Of a stretch of 64,000 nucleotides of DNA, positions 1,580 to 26,212 are shown one piece after another. Location: contig JAHRYP010000001.1 in NCBI GenBank assembly GCA_020622105.1, positions 63,194 through 127,193 of the forward strand, written 5' to 3'. The stretch comes from Methylotenera sp. (GTDB lineage: Bacteria; Pseudomonadota; Gammaproteobacteria; Burkholderiales; Methylophilaceae). The first letter of the stretch is position 1. Every line of letters starts with the position of its first letter. Both the position numbers and the translations under genes were made by a program. The notes under the pieces were generated by a model. That model worked only from the letters and a program-made list of their open reading frames with translations. It had not been told where the DNA came from and made no database searches.

Positions 1580-1811
1580 TGCCCCCAACATTGATTTAAC
1601 TTTACATGGGCAATTGCCCATTCTATTAGTTGCTGTATTTAAAACAACTAATCCAAACGGAGTAATCCTTAGTGACGATTGTCACAGCTAGCCATAAGTT
1701 CGAGAATTCAGTTGTAAGTTTTGACAACACGTCATCTCCCAACTTACTACGAAGTTGAACTCCCTTGGGGGCATTGCAATATTGCATATTTTGTATTTGC
1801 CCCCTTTTTTT
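1580..1811 (+). promoter_or_regulatory. structured leader RNA with terminator switch upstream of folE2
   Basis: TGCCCCCAA (1580-1588) pairs perfectly with TTGGGGGCA (1765-1773) and closes a domain of several hairpins: ATGGGC/GCCCAT (1606-1621), ATTAGTTG/CAACTAAT (1625-1652), and a sub-domain closed by GGAGT/ACTCC (1659-1663 with 1759-1763). That sub-domain holds GTGAC/GTCAC (1672-1685), GTTGT/ACAAC (1711-1728) and AACTT/AAGTT (1741-1756). The 3' strand of the closing helix can instead pair with TGCCCCC (1798-1804), followed by seven T, to make an intrinsic terminator. The two pairings exclude each other, the logic of a riboswitch or other attenuator. It matches no riboswitch class I can recall; the ligand is unknown. 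Confidence 0.6.
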
Positions 1812-1899: not shown

Positions 1900-2697
1900 A
1901 TGAATTCGCCAATAGGTTTTTCAATAGAAGATGTACAAAATTTGGTTGATATCCGTCAGCTTGCAATTGATAAAGTCGGCATTAAATCAATACGCCACCC
2001 TGTTAAGATCAAAGATAAAGCAGGAGAGGCCCAGCATACCGTTGCGACATTTAATATGTATGTACATTTGCCACAGCATTTAAAAGGTACGCACATGTCC
2101 AGATTCATTGAAATTCTGAATGGCAACGACCATGAGATTTCAATAGAGAATTTTTATAAAATGCTAAAACAAGTGGCGCTGAAACTCGAAGCAGATTCAG
2201 GCCACATAGAAATGTCATTTCCTTATTTTGTGAATAAATCAGCCCCGGTTTCCGGTGTAAAAAGCCTGCTTGATTATGAGGTCACATTTATCGGTGAGAT
2301 CACAAAAGCCTATCATGACGTCAAAGTAAAGGTTCTGATCCCAGTCACCAGCCTTTGCCCGTGTTCTAAAAAAATATCTGCTTATGGTGCGCATAATCAG
2401 CGCTCTCACGTTACGGTAACAGTCGCGCTAAAAGAGTTGATGTGGATAGAGGATATTATCAAGACGGTAGAAGCACAGGCTTCATCAGAGCTGTATGGCT
2501 TATTAAAACGCCCTGATGAAAAGTATGTAACTGAGCTTGCATACGACAACCCAAAATTTGTAGAAGACATGGTGCGTGATATCGCTGCTGCTTTTTATAA
2601 AGATGAGCGCATCAAGAACTTTACGGTTGAATGCGAAAACTTTGAATCCATACATAATCATTCAGCATACGCCTGCATAACAAGTAATAATTTATAA
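1900..2697 (+). CDS. folE2: GTP cyclohydrolase I type B
   Basis: This 265-residue protein converts GTP to 7,8-dihydroneopterin triphosphate, the first step to tetrahydrofolate, and is the metal-flexible alternative to FolE. The family signature [19 protein letters not shown] is present with Cys153 and Cys155, and length is normal for FolE2. The ATG has only a weak ribosome site (AAAGAGAAA). It lies 88 bases after the terminator of the structured leader, so its expression is probably controlled by attenuation. It is followed after ten bases by the riboflavin gene; both products start from GTP or ribulose phosphate, and methylotrophs use pterin C1 carriers and flavoenzymes heavily. Confidence 0.95.
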
Positions 2698-2707
2698 CGA
2701 GCACATC

Positions 2708-3865
2708 ATGAATAACTTCGTTAGCACCAACTTATTAGAGCAACAGAAACCCATTCCTGGAATGGATCTGTTTCTGAAGCGTAGCAAAGCCATCAGCCCG
2801 ATTACAGAAATAATCGAGGAAATACGCCAGGGTCGCATGGTGGTGTTACTGGATGATGAAGATCGCGAAAACGAAGGTGACCTGGTGATGGCGGCACAAT
2901 ATGTGACGCCTGAAGATATCAATTTTATGTCCAAACATGGACGTGGCTTGATATGCTTAACGCTCACGGAAGAGCGTGGAAAACAGTTGAATCTTAGCCC
3001 TATGGTAGCCCGTAACGGCACTAAAATGGGCACTAACTTCACGGCTTCCATTGAGGCCGCTGAAGGTGTTACTACCGGGATTTCAGCTGCTGACCGTGCG
3101 CATACAATCCAGACCGCTGTGCATGTGAATGCACGCCCTATGGATGTTGTCAGCCCGGGCCATGTATTTCCTTTAATTGCACAAAAGGGCGGCGTGTTAG
3201 TGCGTGCCGGCCATACTGAGGCTGGCTGTGATATCGCCAAGCTGGCGAAGCTGGATGCTTCAGCAGTGATTTGTGAAATTCTTAAAGATAACGGCGAAAT
3301 GGCGCGCCTGCCAGATTTGTTGGACTTTGCGGCCAAACATGATCTTAAAGTCGGTACGATTGCTGACCTGATTAATTACAGAAGCCAGACCGAGTCTCTG
3401 GTAAAGCGCGTTGCTGAACGATTGATTGAAACACCTTATGGCTCGTTTCAGTTAATTGCCTATCAAGAGTCTATTGCTAATCAAACGCATTTGGCGCTGG
3501 TTAAAGGCACTATCGCCGCAGATAAAAGCGTTCTGGTCCGTGTGCATGAACCTCTATCGGTACTGGATTTACTTGATGCCAGCAACAAGAGCCATAGTTG
3601 GAGCCTGCCAGATGCAATGCAAATGATCGGCCAAGCGGATGCAGGTGTAATTGTGATGTTAAGACGCGACGAGAAAAGTGAGGATGTCATCCATGCAATT
3701 AATTCAGCAAATTTCCCTGCTAACAATCAATACACGCTTAAAGATTACGGAATTGGTGCGCAAATACTACGAGATCTGGGAGTGGTGAAAATGCGCCTGA
3801 TGGCAGAGCCGCGCAAGATGCCTAGTATGGCCGGCTTTGGCTTGCAGGTTACAGAGTTTCTGTAG
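2708..3865 (+). CDS. ribB: 3,4-dihydroxy-2-butanone 4-phosphate synthase with degenerate RibA-like domain (RibBX type)
   Basis: The N-terminal half (about residues 25-225) is DHBP synthase, making the four-carbon unit of riboflavin from ribulose 5-phosphate; the acidic DDEDRENEGDLV loop and RAGHTEAGCD motif are intact. The C-terminal half follows GTP cyclohydrolase II but has lost the three zinc cysteines: where C-x10-C-x-C is expected there is VRVHEPLSVLDLLDASNKS. It therefore should not hydrolyse GTP, as in the RibBX proteins of many betaproteobacteria. It is probably co-transcribed with folE2. A separate true RibA must exist elsewhere if riboflavin is made. The gene ribH lies at 25.3 kb. 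Confidence 0.9.
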   Translation: MNNFVSTNLLEQQKPIPGMDLFLKRSKAISPITEIIEEIRQGRMVVLLDDEDRENEGDLVMAAQYVTPEDINFMSKHGRGLICLTLTEERGKQLNLSPMVARNGTKMGTNFTASIEAAEGVTTGISAADRAHTIQTAVHVNARPMDVVSPGHVFPLIAQKGGVLVRAGHTEAGCDIAKLAKLDASAVICEILKDNGEMARLPDLLDFAAKHDLKVGTIADLINYRSQTESLVKRVAERLIETPYGSFQLIAYQESIANQTHLALVKGTIAADKSVLVRVHEPLSVLDLLDASNKSHSWSLPDAMQMIGQADAGVIVMLRRDEKSEDVIHAINSANFPANNQYTLKDYGIGAQILRDLGVVKMRLMAEPRKMPSMAGFGLQVTEFL

Positions 3866-7227: not shown

Positions 7228-7653
7228 GGGTTTACTCCAGAGTAGGGTTGGTTTAAAAAACGCTGGTACAACTGCCTGTTTATTCTCAGTTTGATTGTCT
7301 ATGGTTTGTTTATCTACTTTTAGATCAAGCACATAGTAAACAGTATGCAAGGCATTAAATATCCCCTTGAAGGTGTAACACAAAAGGAGTATCTGCGTAT
7401 TTCTGATGTGGTTGAACATACTATTAACCCGCTCAATTCATCAGCTACTACTTTTAGAGTAATCCATAGTGATGATTGTGTAGCAATAATGATTGCTATC
7501 AAATGACCTGGGAATTTAGGAGTTTTGTTGATATTCGGTTTATAAAATTTATTAAGTAAGTGGCAAGACTAAATTCTTTTGCTTTACCCGGTTGTATTGT
7601 GGTCATCACTATTTTGGCCTGGTGTTGGGAATTTTCTTAAAAGGGGACTTAAA
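7228..7653. other. divergent intergenic region, globin / permease 1
   Basis: About 425 bases between the divergent globin and permease genes with no supported gene. It carries the TACTAC-N7-GTA motif (7446-7465) and, overlapping its right half, a 23-base segment (7457-7479) matching 21 bases of the folE2 leader (1660-1682). Promoters for both directions are expected here. Confidence 0.55.
7446..7465. promoter_or_regulatory. candidate operator TACTAC-N7-GTAATCC before permease 1
   Basis: TACTAC (7446-7451), seven bases, then GTAATCC (7459-7465). The same half-sites and the same 7-base spacing occur before tmd, the dimethylamine operon and permease 2. It lies about 190 bases before the permease start and about 220 before the globin start. 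Confidence 0.45.
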
Positions 7654-9351
7654 TTGAGCTTAAATTCGTCAGTTGATGCAATTTCAGCTGATCTTTCCGA
7701 AAACGTCGTAGCGCAAAATGCGACGTTACATAGAAAGATTGGCTGGCAAGGTGCATTCTGGGTGGCAAGCGGCGTTCCAGCGCTTGTTCTGTTTTCAATC
7801 GGCGCAATTGCCGCCACTGTTGGTAAGCCTGCTTGGATGATATGGGCGATATCAATTACTTTTGGTTTTATACAAGCTTTCACTTATGCAGAAATTGCCG
7901 GATTGTTTCCGCATAAGTCAGGCGGTGCATCGATTTACGGTGCGGTTGCATGGGTCAAATATAGTAAGTTTATAGCGCCGGTTTCGGTATGGTGTAACTG
8001 GTTTGCCTGGTCGCCGGTACTCGCGATTGGCTCCGGGCTGGCGGCAGGCTATTTGCTGAGTGCACTGTTTGCACCCGATGCCGTCATTAATACCTGGCAG
8101 CTGACTTTGCTGGATTTGGGCATGATTAAATCCGGACTAGCGCTGAGAATTAACGCGACCTTTATCTTGGGTGCTTCAATTTTGTTGTCAGTATTCTTTA
8201 TTCAGCATGGCGGTATTTTACGTTCAGCAAAAACCACGATGGTACTTGGGTTGATTGCATTGATTCCATTGATGCTGATAGGTTTAGTACCCCTGATTAC
8301 CGGCGACACCTCGCAGGCAAATTTCTTTCCGTTAGCGCCGTTGGCACATGATGCTGCCGGCAACGTGATTGATGGGGTATGGGGAATAGAAGGCTGGAAG
8401 CTGATGGCTGGCGGTTTGTTTATTGCCGCATGGTCTACTTATGGCTTTGAAACCGCAGTATGTTACACACGTGAGTTCAAAAACCCGAAATCAGATACCT
8501 TCAAGGCGATCTTCTACTCTGGTTTACTTTGCGTGGCAGTATTTACGCTAGTACCTATCGCTTTCCAAAGTCATTTAGGTTTGGGTCAGATGGTAACCCC
8601 AGCAGTTGTTGATGCTGCCGGTGTTGTGGTAACGCCAGCAGTTTACAGTGGCATGCTGGAAGCTTCTATTTATAGTGGCATGGGTGTGGCTGCGGCATTC
8701 TCCGATATCGTAGGTGGCGGAAAATTTGTTGCTAACTTGATGATTATCATGATGGTACTGGCTTTATTGCTGGCGATCATGACTTCAATGGCAGGCTCTT
8801 CACGTACTTTGTATCAAGCATCAGTAGATGGCTGGCTGCCTAAGTATCTGTCCAGAGTGAATGAACATGGCGCACCTACCAGTGCAATGTGGACAGACCT
8901 TTGCTTTAACCTCGTACTGCTCATGATGTCTGATTATGTGTTTGTACTTGCAGCGTCAAATATCGGTTATATCATCTTTAACTTCCTTAACCTTAACTCA
9001 GGCTGGATTCACAGGCTTGACCGTCCAAACTGGGAGCGTCCATATAAAGCGCCTTTAATCCTGATTACTTTGGGCGGCATACTGGGTTATGTCAATCTGG
9101 CGATCATGGGCTTAGGTGCTGATGTATGGGGTACCGGTACGTTGATGACTGGCTTGATCTTTACATCATTGATCATACCGGTCTTTATCTATAGGCACTA
9201 CGTGCAGGATAAAGGCGTGTTCCCTAAACAAATGCTGGAAGACATGCATATTGCCGGGCATGAAGATGGGGTGGCTAATCGAGCAGGCATACTGCCTTAT
9301 CTGGCGATTGCTACTGGCGTCGCCCTGGTCTGGTATATGCATAGCTTGTAA
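7654..9351 (+). CDS. APC-superfamily permease, probable methylated-amine uptake (copy 1)
   Basis: A permease of about 565 residues with 12 or more hydrophobic helices and APC-family features such as GGASIYGAVAWVKYSKF and AGGLFIAAWSTYGFETAV. Uptake of tri- or dimethylamine is inferred from its place directly before tmd and from a second, very similar copy at 26.2 kb. The TTG start at 7654 is chosen because AAGGGGA (7641-7647) precedes it by six bases and because it matches the paralogue's start; an in-frame TTG at 7579 would add 25 unrelated residues. The terminator at 9403-9439 closes the unit, so tmd has its own promoter. Confidence 0.85.
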   Translation: MSLNSSVDAISADLSENVVAQNATLHRKIGWQGAFWVASGVPALVLFSIGAIAATVGKPAWMIWAISITFGFIQAFTYAEIAGLFPHKSGGASIYGAVAWVKYSKFIAPVSVWCNWFAWSPVLAIGSGLAAGYLLSALFAPDAVINTWQLTLLDLGMIKSGLALRINATFILGASILLSVFFIQHGGILRSAKTTMVLGLIALIPLMLIGLVPLITGDTSQANFFPLAPLAHDAAGNVIDGVWGIEGWKLMAGGLFIAAWSTYGFETAVCYTREFKNPKSDTFKAIFYSGLLCVAVFTLVPIAFQSHLGLGQMVTPAVVDAAGVVVTPAVYSGMLEASIYSGMGVAAAFSDIVGGGKFVANLMIIMMVLALLLAIMTSMAGSSRTLYQASVDGWLPKYLSRVNEHGAPTSAMWTDLCFNLVLLMMSDYVFVLAASNIGYIIFNFLNLNSGWIHRLDRPNWERPYKAPLILITLGGILGYVNLAIMGLGADVWGTGTLMTGLIFTSLIIPVFIYRHYVQDKGVFPKQMLEDMHIAGHEDGVANRAGILPYLAIATGVALVWYMHSL

Positions 9352-9533: not shown

Positions 9534-11759
<2,226 letters not shown>

Positions 11760-17394: not shown

Positions 17395-17415
17395 GTACTA
17401 CCCCTTTCGTAGTAC
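17395..17415. promoter_or_regulatory. candidate operator, perfect GTACTAC-N7-GTAGTAC palindrome
   Basis: GTACTAC (17395-17401), seven bases, GTAGTAC (17409-17415), a perfect inverted repeat. It is the best copy of the motif also seen before permease 1, tmd and permease 2, and lies 130 bases before the dimethylamine operon. The form suits a dimeric regulator such as the NarL-type protein encoded at 24531-25169. Confidence 0.55.
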
Positions 17416-17544
17416 AACTTCAAGGTAATTTTCCCTACCACACTATTCCTATAGTCTTGTGAACAGAATGTTACAAACAGATGAATTGATTGAGCGTAAC
17501 AGCAGCCTATTACAAGCAAATTTTATTTTTTAAAAGAGATCACT

Positions 17545-18147
17545 ATGGAACGCGGTTACTGGATTAAAAGTAAGCCTATCTATACCTCGCTGGTGTGGCA
17601 TGAAAAAGCAACCTCACATTTAGTGCTGGCCTCCGGTATCGGCGGTATGGCGGCACTGAAGTTGTTTCAGCAGATGCACCCTGCACAGCCGGTTACGGTG
17701 CTGTATGCGAGATATGCGCAGATGGAAGTTGATTACTCGGAGACATTGAAAAAAGTAGTGCCTGATAATTTGCATGTATTCAAGTTTGAAGAAGATCTTC
17801 TGACTGAATTAAAAAGCATCATGCCGCATATGCGCATGGGCTTGCGCATATATGTTGCCGGCTCCGAAGGCTTTATATGGGACGTAGCCAAAGCTGTGAA
17901 ACCGTTTGGTGTGGATGACGCACACATTATGAAAGAACAGACAGACACATTGGCACGCAACGTTTATTGCGTGCATTGCAAGGCAGTTACCAAGAGTGTC
18001 ACCACGAATATTGTGGCGTGTTGCGGCTGTGAACGCATGCTCTTTGTACGTGACCATTTTTCGAGAAATCTGGGCGCGTACATGGGCTTAATGGTTGATG
18101 CAGAGTCTCCAGGTGAGTTGCCTGCTATTGAGGAGATATATCCATGA
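17545..18147 (+). CDS. dmmA: dimethylamine monooxygenase (HODM) subunit, DmmA family
   Basis: A 200-residue protein. Its C-terminus has a zinc-ribbon-like group CVHCKAVTKSVTTNIVACCGC (Cys-x2-Cys and Cys-Cys-x-Cys), and its middle has a Rossmann-like segment (LRIYVAGSEGFIWDVAKAV) resembling reductase NAD domains. That pattern and the two genes after it fit the DmmA-like subunit of haem-dependent oxidative N-demethylases, which turn dimethylamine into methylamine and formaldehyde with O2 and NAD(P)H. Its exact role in electron transfer or assembly is not clear from sequence. AAGAGAT precedes the ATG. The next gene overlaps by four bases (ATGA). Confidence 0.8.
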   Translation: MERGYWIKSKPIYTSLVWHEKATSHLVLASGIGGMAALKLFQQMHPAQPVTVLYARYAQMEVDYSETLKKVVPDNLHVFKFEEDLLTELKSIMPHMRMGLRIYVAGSEGFIWDVAKAVKPFGVDDAHIMKEQTDTLARNVYCVHCKAVTKSVTTNIVACCGCERMLFVRDHFSRNLGAYMGLMVDAESPGELPAIEEIYP

Positions 18148-22665: not shown

Positions 22666-24507
22666 ATGCAAAATATTTTAAATATCTTTAAGACATTACC
22701 TAGTTACATCATAAACCATAAGCTTTATGCAAACTTGCATTTGCTGGTAGTTTCATTGGTTTTGACGGTGATTATGATCCAGGCGAGTTCTCTGTTTCTG
22801 TATGATTACATTCCCAATCATCTGGCTACGATTAACCAGGCATACAAAGACCAGTCGCTATGGAAGCTGGAACTTCATAAACTGGAAAAAAGCGCTGAAC
22901 TGAGCAGTGCAGACTTTATTCATTTAAATGATAGTTTAAGTAATTTTAATGACCGTACCTATGTATGGAGCAAAAATCAGCACGATACAAGTCTGGCAAA
23001 TGCATATAACAAACTATCTCAGGCACATCATCAGTTTTCTGCAGCACGTGTGCATGGCGTTGCAAAAAAACAGCTATTGGAAAACGCTAGAAACGTCATT
23101 ACAGCTTATGATGAATTCATCGAAGCCTCACAAAACGACGTTATCATCAAGCAGTCTGTAGTTCAGCTCATGCAATTAGTATGTGTTTTTATCACAATAT
23201 CCATCGGTGCATGCATTATGTTTATCTCATGGAGAATATTGATAACGCGGCTAGGCAAGATTTATGAACTGATACCGGAAGATCTGCTTTTAGAAGATAA
23301 AAATTATCAGTATGAAGATGAATTGGAGCGGCTGGAAAAGCTAACTGCAGAAATGTCTGCCAGGCTCGAAGGTTATCAGGTCGAAAGCACGTGGACCAAT
23401 AAAAACAGTATGGAAAGAATGCGAAAAATGCTTATTTCGCAAGACTTTCTATTCAAACTCGCAAAGCTGGTAGCAAAGTCAGATTTAAGCGAAATGACCA
23501 TAAAAAAAATACTCTATTCTATGGAGAGTACGCTGGCCGTTAAGAATGTGGCATTAGTTTTTAGTGAAAATGGCACACGCATCACCACACAGCGCGCACT
23601 TTACTCAAGTAGCTGGCCATTAACTTTTGATGAGAATATGTTTGATAAAAGCTTGCATATCCTTGCTGTGAATCATGAAACCAAGCTTATAAAAGGCGAA
23701 TGCATACAATGTGTGACGATTCCGCTGCCTGGACCAAGTGGCTGGTTAGGAATATTGCTGATAGAAACTGAAGCGAATCATTATTTTGAGGATACTGAAA
23801 TTCAGCTGATTGAGGTAACTTCGCAGATGCTGGCGCTATCGATGGGCTTTCAAGCCAGAGAGCAGGAGGGGCGTCGCGTTGCGTTACTTGAAGAGCGTGC
23901 GGTAATCGCAAGGGAGTTGCATGACTCCCTAGCGCAGTCTTTATCGTATATGAAATTTCAGTTAGCGCGTTTGCAAACGAATTATGGTCCCGGGCTGCTT
24001 GAGTCAGGCGCTTCTGTCATTGTCGACGATATGCGCGAGGGATTGGATAATGCATACCGTGAATTGAGAGAGCTATTAACAACGTTCAGGGTGCAGATGG
24101 ATGTGCGTGGGCTCGACCATGTACTGGAGGAAACCATCAATGAGTTTTCCAATCGTTCAAATTTATCTATTACACTAGATAACAGGCTGCAGGAGTGCAG
24201 ACTTACGGTGAATGAGGAATTCCATTTGCTGCATGTGATACGTGAAGCCTTATCAAATATCGTGCGGCATTCAGGTGCTGATAAAGTAACGATTTCTCTT
24301 GTATTACAATCTACAGGAGATGTTGTGGTGACCGTTGATGATAACGGTATAGGTTCTGCTTTTGATGAATCGAAGCCACACCATTATGGACTGGCGATCA
24401 TGACAGAACGTGCCCATTGTCTGGGTGGCAGTATTGAAATTAGACCTCGCCGTCTCGGTGGAACGCGCGTCCGTTTGCAGTTCCGCCCAAAGAGTGATGG
24501 TATTTAG
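22666..24507 (+). CDS. NarX/DegS-type sensor histidine kinase
   Basis: The 613-residue protein has two membrane helices (about 28-52 and 165-188) around a periplasmic segment of about 110 residues, a HAMP-like and GAF-like middle part, a HisKA_3 box ERAVIARELHDSLAQSLSYM with phospho-acceptor His419, and an HATPase_c domain (REALSNIVRHSGADKV, then DDNGIG). The following response regulator starts 23 bases later, so they are partners. Its place among amine genes suggests it senses a methylated amine or the energy state; the input domain itself does not show the ligand. Confidence 0.92.
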   Translation: MQNILNIFKTLPSYIINHKLYANLHLLVVSLVLTVIMIQASSLFLYDYIPNHLATINQAYKDQSLWKLELHKLEKSAELSSADFIHLNDSLSNFNDRTYVWSKNQHDTSLANAYNKLSQAHHQFSAARVHGVAKKQLLENARNVITAYDEFIEASQNDVIIKQSVVQLMQLVCVFITISIGACIMFISWRILITRLGKIYELIPEDLLLEDKNYQYEDELERLEKLTAEMSARLEGYQVESTWTNKNSMERMRKMLISQDFLFKLAKLVAKSDLSEMTIKKILYSMESTLAVKNVALVFSENGTRITTQRALYSSSWPLTFDENMFDKSLHILAVNHETKLIKGECIQCVTIPLPGPSGWLGILLIETEANHYFEDTEIQLIEVTSQMLALSMGFQAREQEGRRVALLEERAVIARELHDSLAQSLSYMKFQLARLQTNYGPGLLESGASVIVDDMREGLDNAYRELRELLTTFRVQMDVRGLDHVLEETINEFSNRSNLSITLDNRLQECRLTVNEEFHLLHVIREALSNIVRHSGADKVTISLVLQSTGDVVVTVDDNGIGSAFDESKPHHYGLAIMTERAHCLGGSIEIRPRRLGGTRVRLQFRPKSDGI

Positions 24508-24530
24508 TTAAGCAGGCGTAGGAGGCCAAG

Positions 24531-25169
24531 ATGCAAACGACAACGACAGTAGTAATTATTGATGATCATGCGCTGTTCCGCAGAGGGGTCAGGCAGATGA
24601 TCTCGTCTGACCCTGAATTTACCGTTGTAGGCGAGGCAGCATCAGGTATGGAGGGCTTCGCTCTGGTTGAAGAGCTTAAGCCGGGCCTGGTCCTGATAGA
24701 TTTGAATATGAAAGGCATGAACGGCATTGAAACAGTGGCTCGCATTAAGGAAGCCAAGCTTGAATCAAAATGTATAGTGCTTACCGTGTCTGATGCTGAG
24801 GATGATTTGCTGGAAGCATTACGTGCGGGTGCAGACGGCTATCTGCTGAAGGATATGGAGCCTGAGGATTTATGTGCCAGTCTCAAAAAAGCCATGTCCG
24901 GCATGACGGTTCTACATGAGAGCCTGACCGAAATACTTAAGAATGCGCTGATTCATCCTACCTTGAACAAAAAAGATGACGATGTTTCGCTTACCGAGCG
25001 CGAGCGGGAAATTCTTGAATGCCTGGCAAAAGGCTTGAATAATAAAACCATTGCCAGAGCTTTAGGTATCAGCGACACCACAGTAAAAGTACATATCAAG
25101 CATCTGCTAAGCAAGCTGAAGCTGACAAGCCGCCTCGAAGCAGCCGTCTGGGCGCACAGCAAAAAATAG
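24531..25169 (+). CDS. NarL/FixJ-type response regulator
   Basis: The 212-residue protein has a receiver domain with acidic pair Asp11-Asp12, phospho-acceptor Asp57 and the conserved Lys of GYLLKDMEP, then a LuxR-type helix-turn-helix (LTEREREILECLAKGLNNKT, then VKVHIKHLLSKL). AGGAGG precedes the ATG. It is the obvious partner of the kinase just upstream. It is the best local candidate to bind the TACTAC-N7-GTA repeats in front of four amine genes, since NarL-type dimers use short inverted half-sites; that is inference. Confidence 0.93.
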   Translation: MQTTTTVVIIDDHALFRRGVRQMISSDPEFTVVGEAASGMEGFALVEELKPGLVLIDLNMKGMNGIETVARIKEAKLESKCIVLTVSDAEDDLLEALRAGADGYLLKDMEPEDLCASLKKAMSGMTVLHESLTEILKNALIHPTLNKKDDDVSLTEREREILECLAKGLNNKTIARALGISDTTVKVHIKHLLSKLKLTSRLEAAVWAHSKK

Positions 25170-25786: not shown

Positions 25787-26212
25787 GTTTTCAACTTTCT
25801 CAAATATTTAAATTTTAGCGATACACTTAGGAATACATTCTAAACAGCGTGGCTGACTTTTATTAACTCAGCATCTGGGTCACAATTTTAATTTCGCATT
25901 GAGCCAATAGGCGAATATGGTTTACTAGCTTTGCGATTTATCATCATAGGTGAATTTCGTTATTTTTATCATTGCCATCAAGTACTACTACCTATGTGGT
26001 AAGACCAAGTGGTAATAGTAAGTAAATTATGGTGTGGTTATGATTCATTACGATGTGACGGGTGAGATTCGATTTACTTTCCCTCACCCAATCGATTAGG
26101 GTATTTCTTTATAACTATATAGCATGTAAGTTGGTTTGCACTGCCGTAACGCCTTACGTAAGTAAAAGGTGTTGTGGTTGAAATAAAGGCATTCCATCTA
26201 GAGGAGGTTGAA
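25787..26212. other. divergent intergenic region, ribH / permease 2
   Basis: About 425 bases without a supported gene. It holds the TACTAC-N7-GTA motif (25986-26005), a GGGTGAG/CTCACCC hairpin with a 16-base loop (26060-26089) and presumably the promoters of both genes. Confidence 0.5.
25986..26005. promoter_or_regulatory. candidate operator TACTAC-N7-GTAAGAC before permease 2
   Basis: TACTAC (25986-25991), seven bases, GTAAGAC (25999-26005). The left half-site is identical to those before permease 1 and the dimethylamine operon. It is about 210 bases before the permease start and about 200 before ribH. Confidence 0.45.

Follow-up and report, generated by a model that had tools for sequence, protein, structure and literature searches.

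Transcription attenuators rely on a terminator 5' arm that pairs either with the terminator strand or with an upstream strand, to the exclusion of the other, and the folate riboswitches THF and THF-II lie upstream of folE genes. The leader described here, upstream of folE2-ribBX in a Methylotenera genome, resembles the general attenuator class in that an upstream strand is predicted to compete for the 5' arm of its terminator, but we identified in it neither a leader peptide nor a tRNA-binding element nor a known protein site. It shares with the THF and THF-II riboswitches its position upstream of a GTP cyclohydrolase gene, and differs from them in that no Rfam family matches the folE2 leaders studied here. 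The DNA preceding the leader invites comparison with the NarX/NarQ-NarL system of Escherichia coli. The regulator encoded in the window (the whole stretch of DNA analysed, 64,000 nucleotides) exceeds the NarL equivalog cut-off and has a similar recognition helix, and its candidate operators are, like those of NarL, inverted heptamers with a 2-bp gap; an engineered E. coli NarL site printed in PMC4549865 as TACCCCTAAAGGGGTA is almost the consensus found here. Unlike in E. coli, the targets belong to trimethylamine/trimethylamine N-oxide (TMAO) catabolism and folE2-ribBX rather than to nitrate respiration, and the window kinase falls under both the NarX and the NarQ cut-offs. In Ruegeria pomeroyi, TmaR/TmoR regulate trimethylamine catabolism and bind promoters (PMC13390433), which likewise places one master regulator over a methylated-amine pathway. 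That system, however, belongs to different organisms, its genes are tmm and tdm rather than tmd and dmm, and the abstract of that paper mentions no sensor kinase. Amine genes have been listed in Methylophilus (PMC8399692); in the main text of that article the terms 'two-component', 'riboswitch' and 'NarL' are absent. Searches of open-access full texts, judged by title and abstract, listed no paper describing two-component control of trimethylamine dehydrogenase, and a search of titles and abstracts for a folE2 riboswitch or a Methylophilaceae riboswitch returned no paper on this system.

Our reading of the sequence is that the region upstream of this folE2-ribBX copy, which belongs to a methylated-amine regulon, is probably a control region with two layers, a DNA operator/promoter followed by an RNA attenuator. 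In the first layer, the NarL-like response regulator, whose gene lies in this cluster, would bind as a dimer to the 7-2-7 dyad, which is centred near -57 from the predicted transcript start, and would activate a sigma-70 promoter with a poor -10 hexamer; the same operator would drive the permease, tmd and gcvT/dmm genes. In the second layer, the transcript starting near position 1714 would carry an intrinsic terminator. A C-rich strand located after a first hairpin (S1) would pair with the 5' arm of that terminator, enclosing a second hairpin (S2) and forming an antiterminator, and the balance between the two structures would set the share of transcripts reaching folE2-ribBX. This reading predicts a regulator, an operator and a gene set for trimethylamine catabolism in Methylophilaceae, together with an attenuator specific to folE2. 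The features on which it draws are collected in Table 1. The permease start given there was chosen within an open reading frame that opens at 7579, and the cluster also encodes a haem-dependent N-demethylase subunit. The genes for the NarQ/NarX-like kinase and the NarL-like regulator (22666-25169) sit inside the trimethylamine cluster.

Table 1. Features of the folE2-ribBX control region and of the surrounding cluster, in window coordinates; regulatory features are predictions.
Feature	Position	Strand	Basis or remark
Upstream arm of the helix proposed in the earlier note	1580-1588	+	judged not part of the RNA; 1 of 25 leaders
NarL-type 7-2-7 operator dyad, TAATCCA-AA-CGGAGTA	1649-1664	+	left half degenerate in the window copy
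Conserved spacer, consensus about ATCCNTANNGNGAA	1665-1678	+	from dyad to -35; gapless 29-row alignment A5
-35 hexamer, TTGTCA	1679-1684	+	TT at fixed offset; sigma-70 pattern scan
-10 hexamer, GAGAAT	1702-1707	+	17-nt spacer; predicted start about 1714
S1 hairpin, UGAC-AACAC-GUCA	1722-1734	+	weak in the window, z -0.78; mean z -2.05 over 20 leaders
C-rich strand, CUCCCAA, putative antiterminator strand	1736-1742	+	pairs with 1765-1771
S2 hairpin, CAACUU-ACUACG-AAGUUG, between the two strands	1740-1757	+	predicted structure
Intrinsic terminator, GGGGGCA/TGCCCCC and seven T	1767-1811	+	predicted pairing probability 0.99 at full length
folE2, GTP cyclohydrolase FolE2 (copy under the operator)	1900-2697	+	PF02649, 328.3 bits; NF010200, 302.8 bits (cut-off 215)
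ribBX (DHBP synthase and GTP cyclohydrolase II-like domain)	2708-3865	+	PF00926, PF00925; NF010626, 586.6 bits (cut-off 513)
Second operator and promoter copy, before the permease gene	7446-7504	+	dyad 7446-7461; -35 TTGTGT 7476-7481; -10 TCAAAT 7499-7504
Permease (NCBIfam trimethylamine N-oxide permease)	7663-9351	+	NF053774, 838 bits (cut-off 690)
tmd, trimethylamine dehydrogenase	9567-11759	+	PDB 1djn, 1653 bits over residues 2-730
Third, weaker operator dyad, before dmmA	17399-17414	+	block-model E 0.00385, match 17397-17434
dmmA	17545-18147	+	NF041259, 118 bits (cut-off 60); PF22290, PF22289
Sensor histidine kinase, NarQ/NarX-like	22666-24507	+	233.7 and 229.7 bits, under curated cut-offs 553 and 578
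NarL-like response regulator, candidate operator binder	24531-25169	+	NF007935 NarL, 279.8 bits (cut-off 250); PDB 1a04, 224.3 bits

Across 34 copies, the block upstream of the leader reads roughly TACYCCT-NN-GGGAGTA, followed by ATCCNTANNGNGAA, a -35 hexamer (mostly TTGTNN, TTTAGN in some copies) and a -10-like hexamer. The dyad consists of two inverted heptamers separated by 2 bp, as in NarL operators: 25 distinct dyads, representing the 34 copies, deviate from the heptamer consensus TACYYMT-NN-AKRRGTA by a mean of 2.08 of 14 positions, versus 8.80 when shuffled. All 34 copies, near-duplicates included, have TT at offset 18 from the AGTA anchor, and a hexamer matching TATAAT in at least 4 of 6 positions follows the -35 at a spacing of 17 nt in 25 copies and 18 nt in 6, so that 31 of the 34 have the arrangement of a sigma-70 promoter (-35 and -10 separated by 16-18 nt). 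At the other offsets between 5 and 39 such a hexamer occurs in at most six copies each, with the exception of offset 22, where 14 copies have one in the bases directly after the -10. Two gcvT copies have their best hexamer at a spacing of 15 nt, and one further copy has no good hexamer. The window dyad is among the weaker ones, and its -10 matches TATAAT at 4 of 6 positions; its promoter scores 9 of 12 in the sigma-70 scan, which found three sites in total where 2.4 are expected by chance. A loose dyad scan of the window alone was uninformative as well (40 found versus 32.87 expected). The block pattern derived from the family has zero-mismatch matches in the window at 1660 and 7457, for a chance expectation of 0.00. 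The start of dmmA lies 149 nt downstream of the start of the third, weaker match (17397). The 14-bp spacer between dyad and -35 is about as conserved as the dyad itself across different genes, which hints at a second protein contact. A further NarL-type dyad (25986-26001) precedes a second amino-acid-permease-family gene and is not among the block-model matches at E<=0.01.

An early reading of this block as the 5' domain of a riboswitch common to the amine regulon was dropped because of the NarL-type dyad, the -35/-10 spacing and the location of the block about 90-120 nt, counted from its first base, before the start codons of gcvT and tmd. A GGA-GUAA-UCC hairpin was likewise rejected as a conserved RNA element: the two-sided change came from one clade, and by eye the pairing fails in other genera (alignment A4, which omits L130, L143, L144 and the permease copy of L137 from the 34 copies; A5 omits L041 in addition). 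As this case shows, the stem of a riboswitch and a conserved dyad in a promoter can be mistaken for one another.

When the leader was modelled from sequence alone (R1), weaker copies turned up before other genes. A second sequence-only model, restricted to the block (R2, 67 columns), matched 44 of the 187 genomes of the family at a cut-off of E<=0.01 and 36 at E<=1e-4; among 300 genomes drawn from the order, five had matches at the stricter cut-off, including one that lies outside the family and has its match near a permease gene. We read 66 R2 matches for downstream genes, and among those that were classified the genes behind the block are the permease, folE2-ribBX, gcvT/dmmA and tmd, while a few blocks are followed by a gene for a Gcw_chp-family protein, by one for a distantly related permease (25% identity) or by no gene that was recognised. 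By eye, 10 of the 35 loci from a pattern scan of the genome contigs appeared real; the 11 loci from the same kind of scan of viral contigs looked unlike the block family and were set aside.

The NarL-like regulator (E<=1e-60) is encoded in 37 of the 187 genomes and co-occurs with the block. Of these 37 genomes, 36 have a block at E<=0.01 and 35 at E<=1e-4, the lone exception being a genome that is 79% complete, and in 34 a block and the regulator gene share a contig and are no more than 18 kb apart. Conversely, the NarL-like regulator is present in 36 of the 44 genomes with a block. The association has a Fisher p of 1e-29, a value uncorrected for kinship among relatives that are not independent. 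Eight genomes have blocks and no regulator; seven of these matches have E values from 2.5e-4 to 9e-3, and that in G122 is at 2.2e-8. Two of the regulator-less genomes, G205 (99% complete, site before gcvT) and G206 (78% complete, site before folE2 with an attenuator), have what look like true sites, and the match between block and regulator is therefore close and not perfect. These data suggest that the regulator binds the block and activates transcription from it.

FolE2 is present in all 52 genomes of the genus that were searched, and several carry extra copies. When 19 FolE2 copies were read upstream, 13 showed the same conserved stretch as the window, from about 1641 to the terminator; by eye the other six (the second copy of L035, L045, L048, L050, L051 and L052) were without it. 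The combination of operator and attenuator was found before five of five second folE2 copies versus none of 21 presumed housekeeping copies, one of which has an isolated dyad-like match upstream. The host genome itself encodes three FolE2 copies (C39:65093, C41:81287 and C39:202798); the three block-model matches in this genome lie near neither of the other two, and the C41 copy (L048) is directly behind a gene with a class-I glutamine amidotransferase domain.

The region had been singled out in an earlier note as one large metabolite riboswitch spanning 1580-1811, in which a multi-branched aptamer closed by pairing of 1580-1588 with 1765-1773 would, on ligand binding, block the terminator. 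Much of what was described is present in the DNA. TGCCCCCAA at 1580-1588 and TTGGGGGCA at 1765-1773 are exact reverse complements of each other, and a 9-nt complement of the terminator arm would seldom arise by chance, 2 of 711 segments of 90 nt from the window having one; GGGGGCA (1767-1773) does pair with TGCCCCC (1798-1804) ahead of TTTTTTT (1805-1811); and the predicted fold of 1560-1815 (-66.3 kcal/mol, z -3.81) beats 200 of 200 dinucleotide shuffles, bearing out the statement that the stretch is more ordered than chance. The absence of a known riboswitch consensus was also confirmed by the Rfam search that had been proposed: no family reached its gathering score anywhere in the window or in 15 homologous loci, and permissive scans gave four sub-threshold matches in 1400-1920 at E<=10, none of them a riboswitch, and no riboswitch family in the homologous leaders. 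The closing helix, however, is not a conserved RNA element. Its upstream arm occurs in one of 25 related leaders, that of the window, and in the other 24 the region before the operator offers only 0 to 6 nt of complementarity to the terminator arm; in the closest homologue, whose FolE2 is 93% identical, the DNA match to the window starts only at about 1640. The conserved part of the supposed domain, about 1649-1707, is better explained as a promoter with a NarL-type operator. This promoter block is shared with genes whose leaders yielded no terminator. The note had named the absence of a transcript start upstream of 1580 as grounds for refutation, and the prediction points that way: the predicted start lies near 1714 and would leave the 1580-1588 arm upstream of the transcript, 126-134 nt before its start. 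The inverted repeats at 1606-1621 and 1628-1653 are likewise upstream of the predicted start. We consequently regard a single large riboswitch as highly improbable; more likely, the finding was real but mis-drawn, and what was taken for one structure comprises an operator/promoter and a short attenuator.

The predicted leader runs from near 1714 to the end of the T run, a length of about 98 nt. Its terminator has too long a loop for a simple terminator scan, which does not list it. Of the operator-driven leaders that we examined, those of folE2 alone have a terminator: one lies between the promoter and the start codon in seven of seven folE2 leaders, whereas none was found in the 48 leaders examined from the regulon's other genes (permease, gcvT, dmm and tmd). 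The earlier note was right that a strand competing for the terminator 5' arm exists before folE2-ribBX, but misplaced it: judged by conservation, the competitor is CUCCCAA (1736-1742) and not 1580-1588. With terminator arms taken from a terminator finder or set by eye, all 25 folE2 leaders that carry the operator have UCUCC or UUCCCC 29-36 nt upstream of the 5' arm. The leader thus combines a terminator with a competing pairing, as an expression platform does, though with weak thermodynamic support in the window. Taken as a sequence prediction, it looks like a folE2-specific attenuator with no match in Rfam.

Whether the C-rich strand acts on the terminator can be weighed against the alternative that the terminator is constitutive and only holds folE2-ribBX expression at a fixed ratio to that of the other amine-regulon genes, pairing by the C-rich strand being incidental. 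The fold predictions favour this alternative. At full length, the terminator is the prevailing structure of 20 of 21 leaders, and the per-leader antiterminator statistics are weak: in the fold model the antiterminator reaches a probability of only 0.12 in the nascent window RNA and stays below 0.5 in 11 of 21 leaders; its segment folds slightly better than chance (mean z -0.87 over 25 leaders); complementarity within a single leader is mostly no better than in shuffles, 15 to 454 of 500 reaching it; and the terminator arm forms its best ungapped helix with a different stretch in 5 of 21 leaders. Against it stands the retention of the C-rich strand at nearly constant distance while the intervening sequence has been randomised, identity among eight representatives being 0.65 in the strand and 0.27, about random, in the mid region. 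The pairing between strand and terminator arm also has 14 cells changed on both sides, a count that none of 500 shuffles attains and that is the highest of seven registers. Other measures of the same alignment are less decisive: the covariation score of the proposed register (0.174) is reached by 6 of 500 shuffles and is closely followed by a register two columns off (0.167), the paired-cell share of 69.5% is reached by 47 of 500, and the pair types by 217 of 500. On balance a purely constitutive terminator is possible but unlikely, and antitermination by the C-rich strand is inferred, as is any signal that would control it.

If the leader does switch, the switch could be operated in more than one way, each a refinement of the second layer. 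An RNA-binding antiterminator protein or a translated leader peptide might set the choice, and the predicted order of a hairpin followed by an antiterminator hairpin overlapping the terminator is the general layout of attenuators of this kind. The window leader, however, has no open reading frame behind a Shine-Dalgarno-like motif, and in 21 folE2 leaders short open reading frames preceded by such motifs are scattered, shared at most by a closely related pair, such that we give control by a protein or the ribosome only a small chance. Alternatively, the leader from about 1714 to 1811 could be a small riboswitch whose balance between antiterminator and terminator responds to a pterin, folate, flavin or GTP-related compound, a refinement that is compatible with the two-layer reading. 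The target genes make pterin and flavin precursors, the terminator with its nearly constantly spaced competing strand is confined to folE2, and in six longer leaders (G201, G175, G181, G191, G127 and G126) the S1 hairpin is far more stable than in shuffles (z -2.9 to -6.0) and is followed in the predicted nascent fold by UCUCC(U), S2 and the G-rich arm. A conserved aptamer core was nevertheless not found: in 24 leaders aligned from the C-rich strand to the terminator arm (A6, with L043 omitted as identical to L040 there and S1 unaligned across genera), the invariant and near-invariant columns lie in the two pairing strands, with hardly any other position conserved across genera. S1 itself differs greatly between leaders, both in sequence and in length, and the window has a weak version of it; Rfam offers no match. 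We found no pointer to the small-molecule ligand that the earlier note had guessed at, the leader RNA conserving mainly two pairing strands across genera, and consider a small riboswitch fairly unlikely. The fuller version of this idea makes 1714-1811 a new small riboswitch-like attenuator responding to a pterin, folate, flavin or one-carbon metabolite and subordinate to a NarL-type two-component system that has been redirected to trimethylamine. It seems to us rather doubtful; if true, a riboswitch-like leader would set the supply of pterin and flavin precursors during growth on methylated amines. The two-layer reading, with an operator-driven promoter and a folE2-specific attenuator, accommodates these refinements and remains the one we prefer.

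Copies of the block near dmmC in Methylophilus have no gene in their direction. In three Methylophilus-type genomes such an extra operator/promoter copy lies downstream of dmmC (L129:5451-5539, L130:5141-5229 and L131:5327-5455, all on the minus strand) and is followed by a conserved stretch containing the inverted repeat GGGAGGC...GCCTCCC. No gene follows this stretch in that direction, the next one being a convergent PAS gene, and the stretch is a candidate small RNA.
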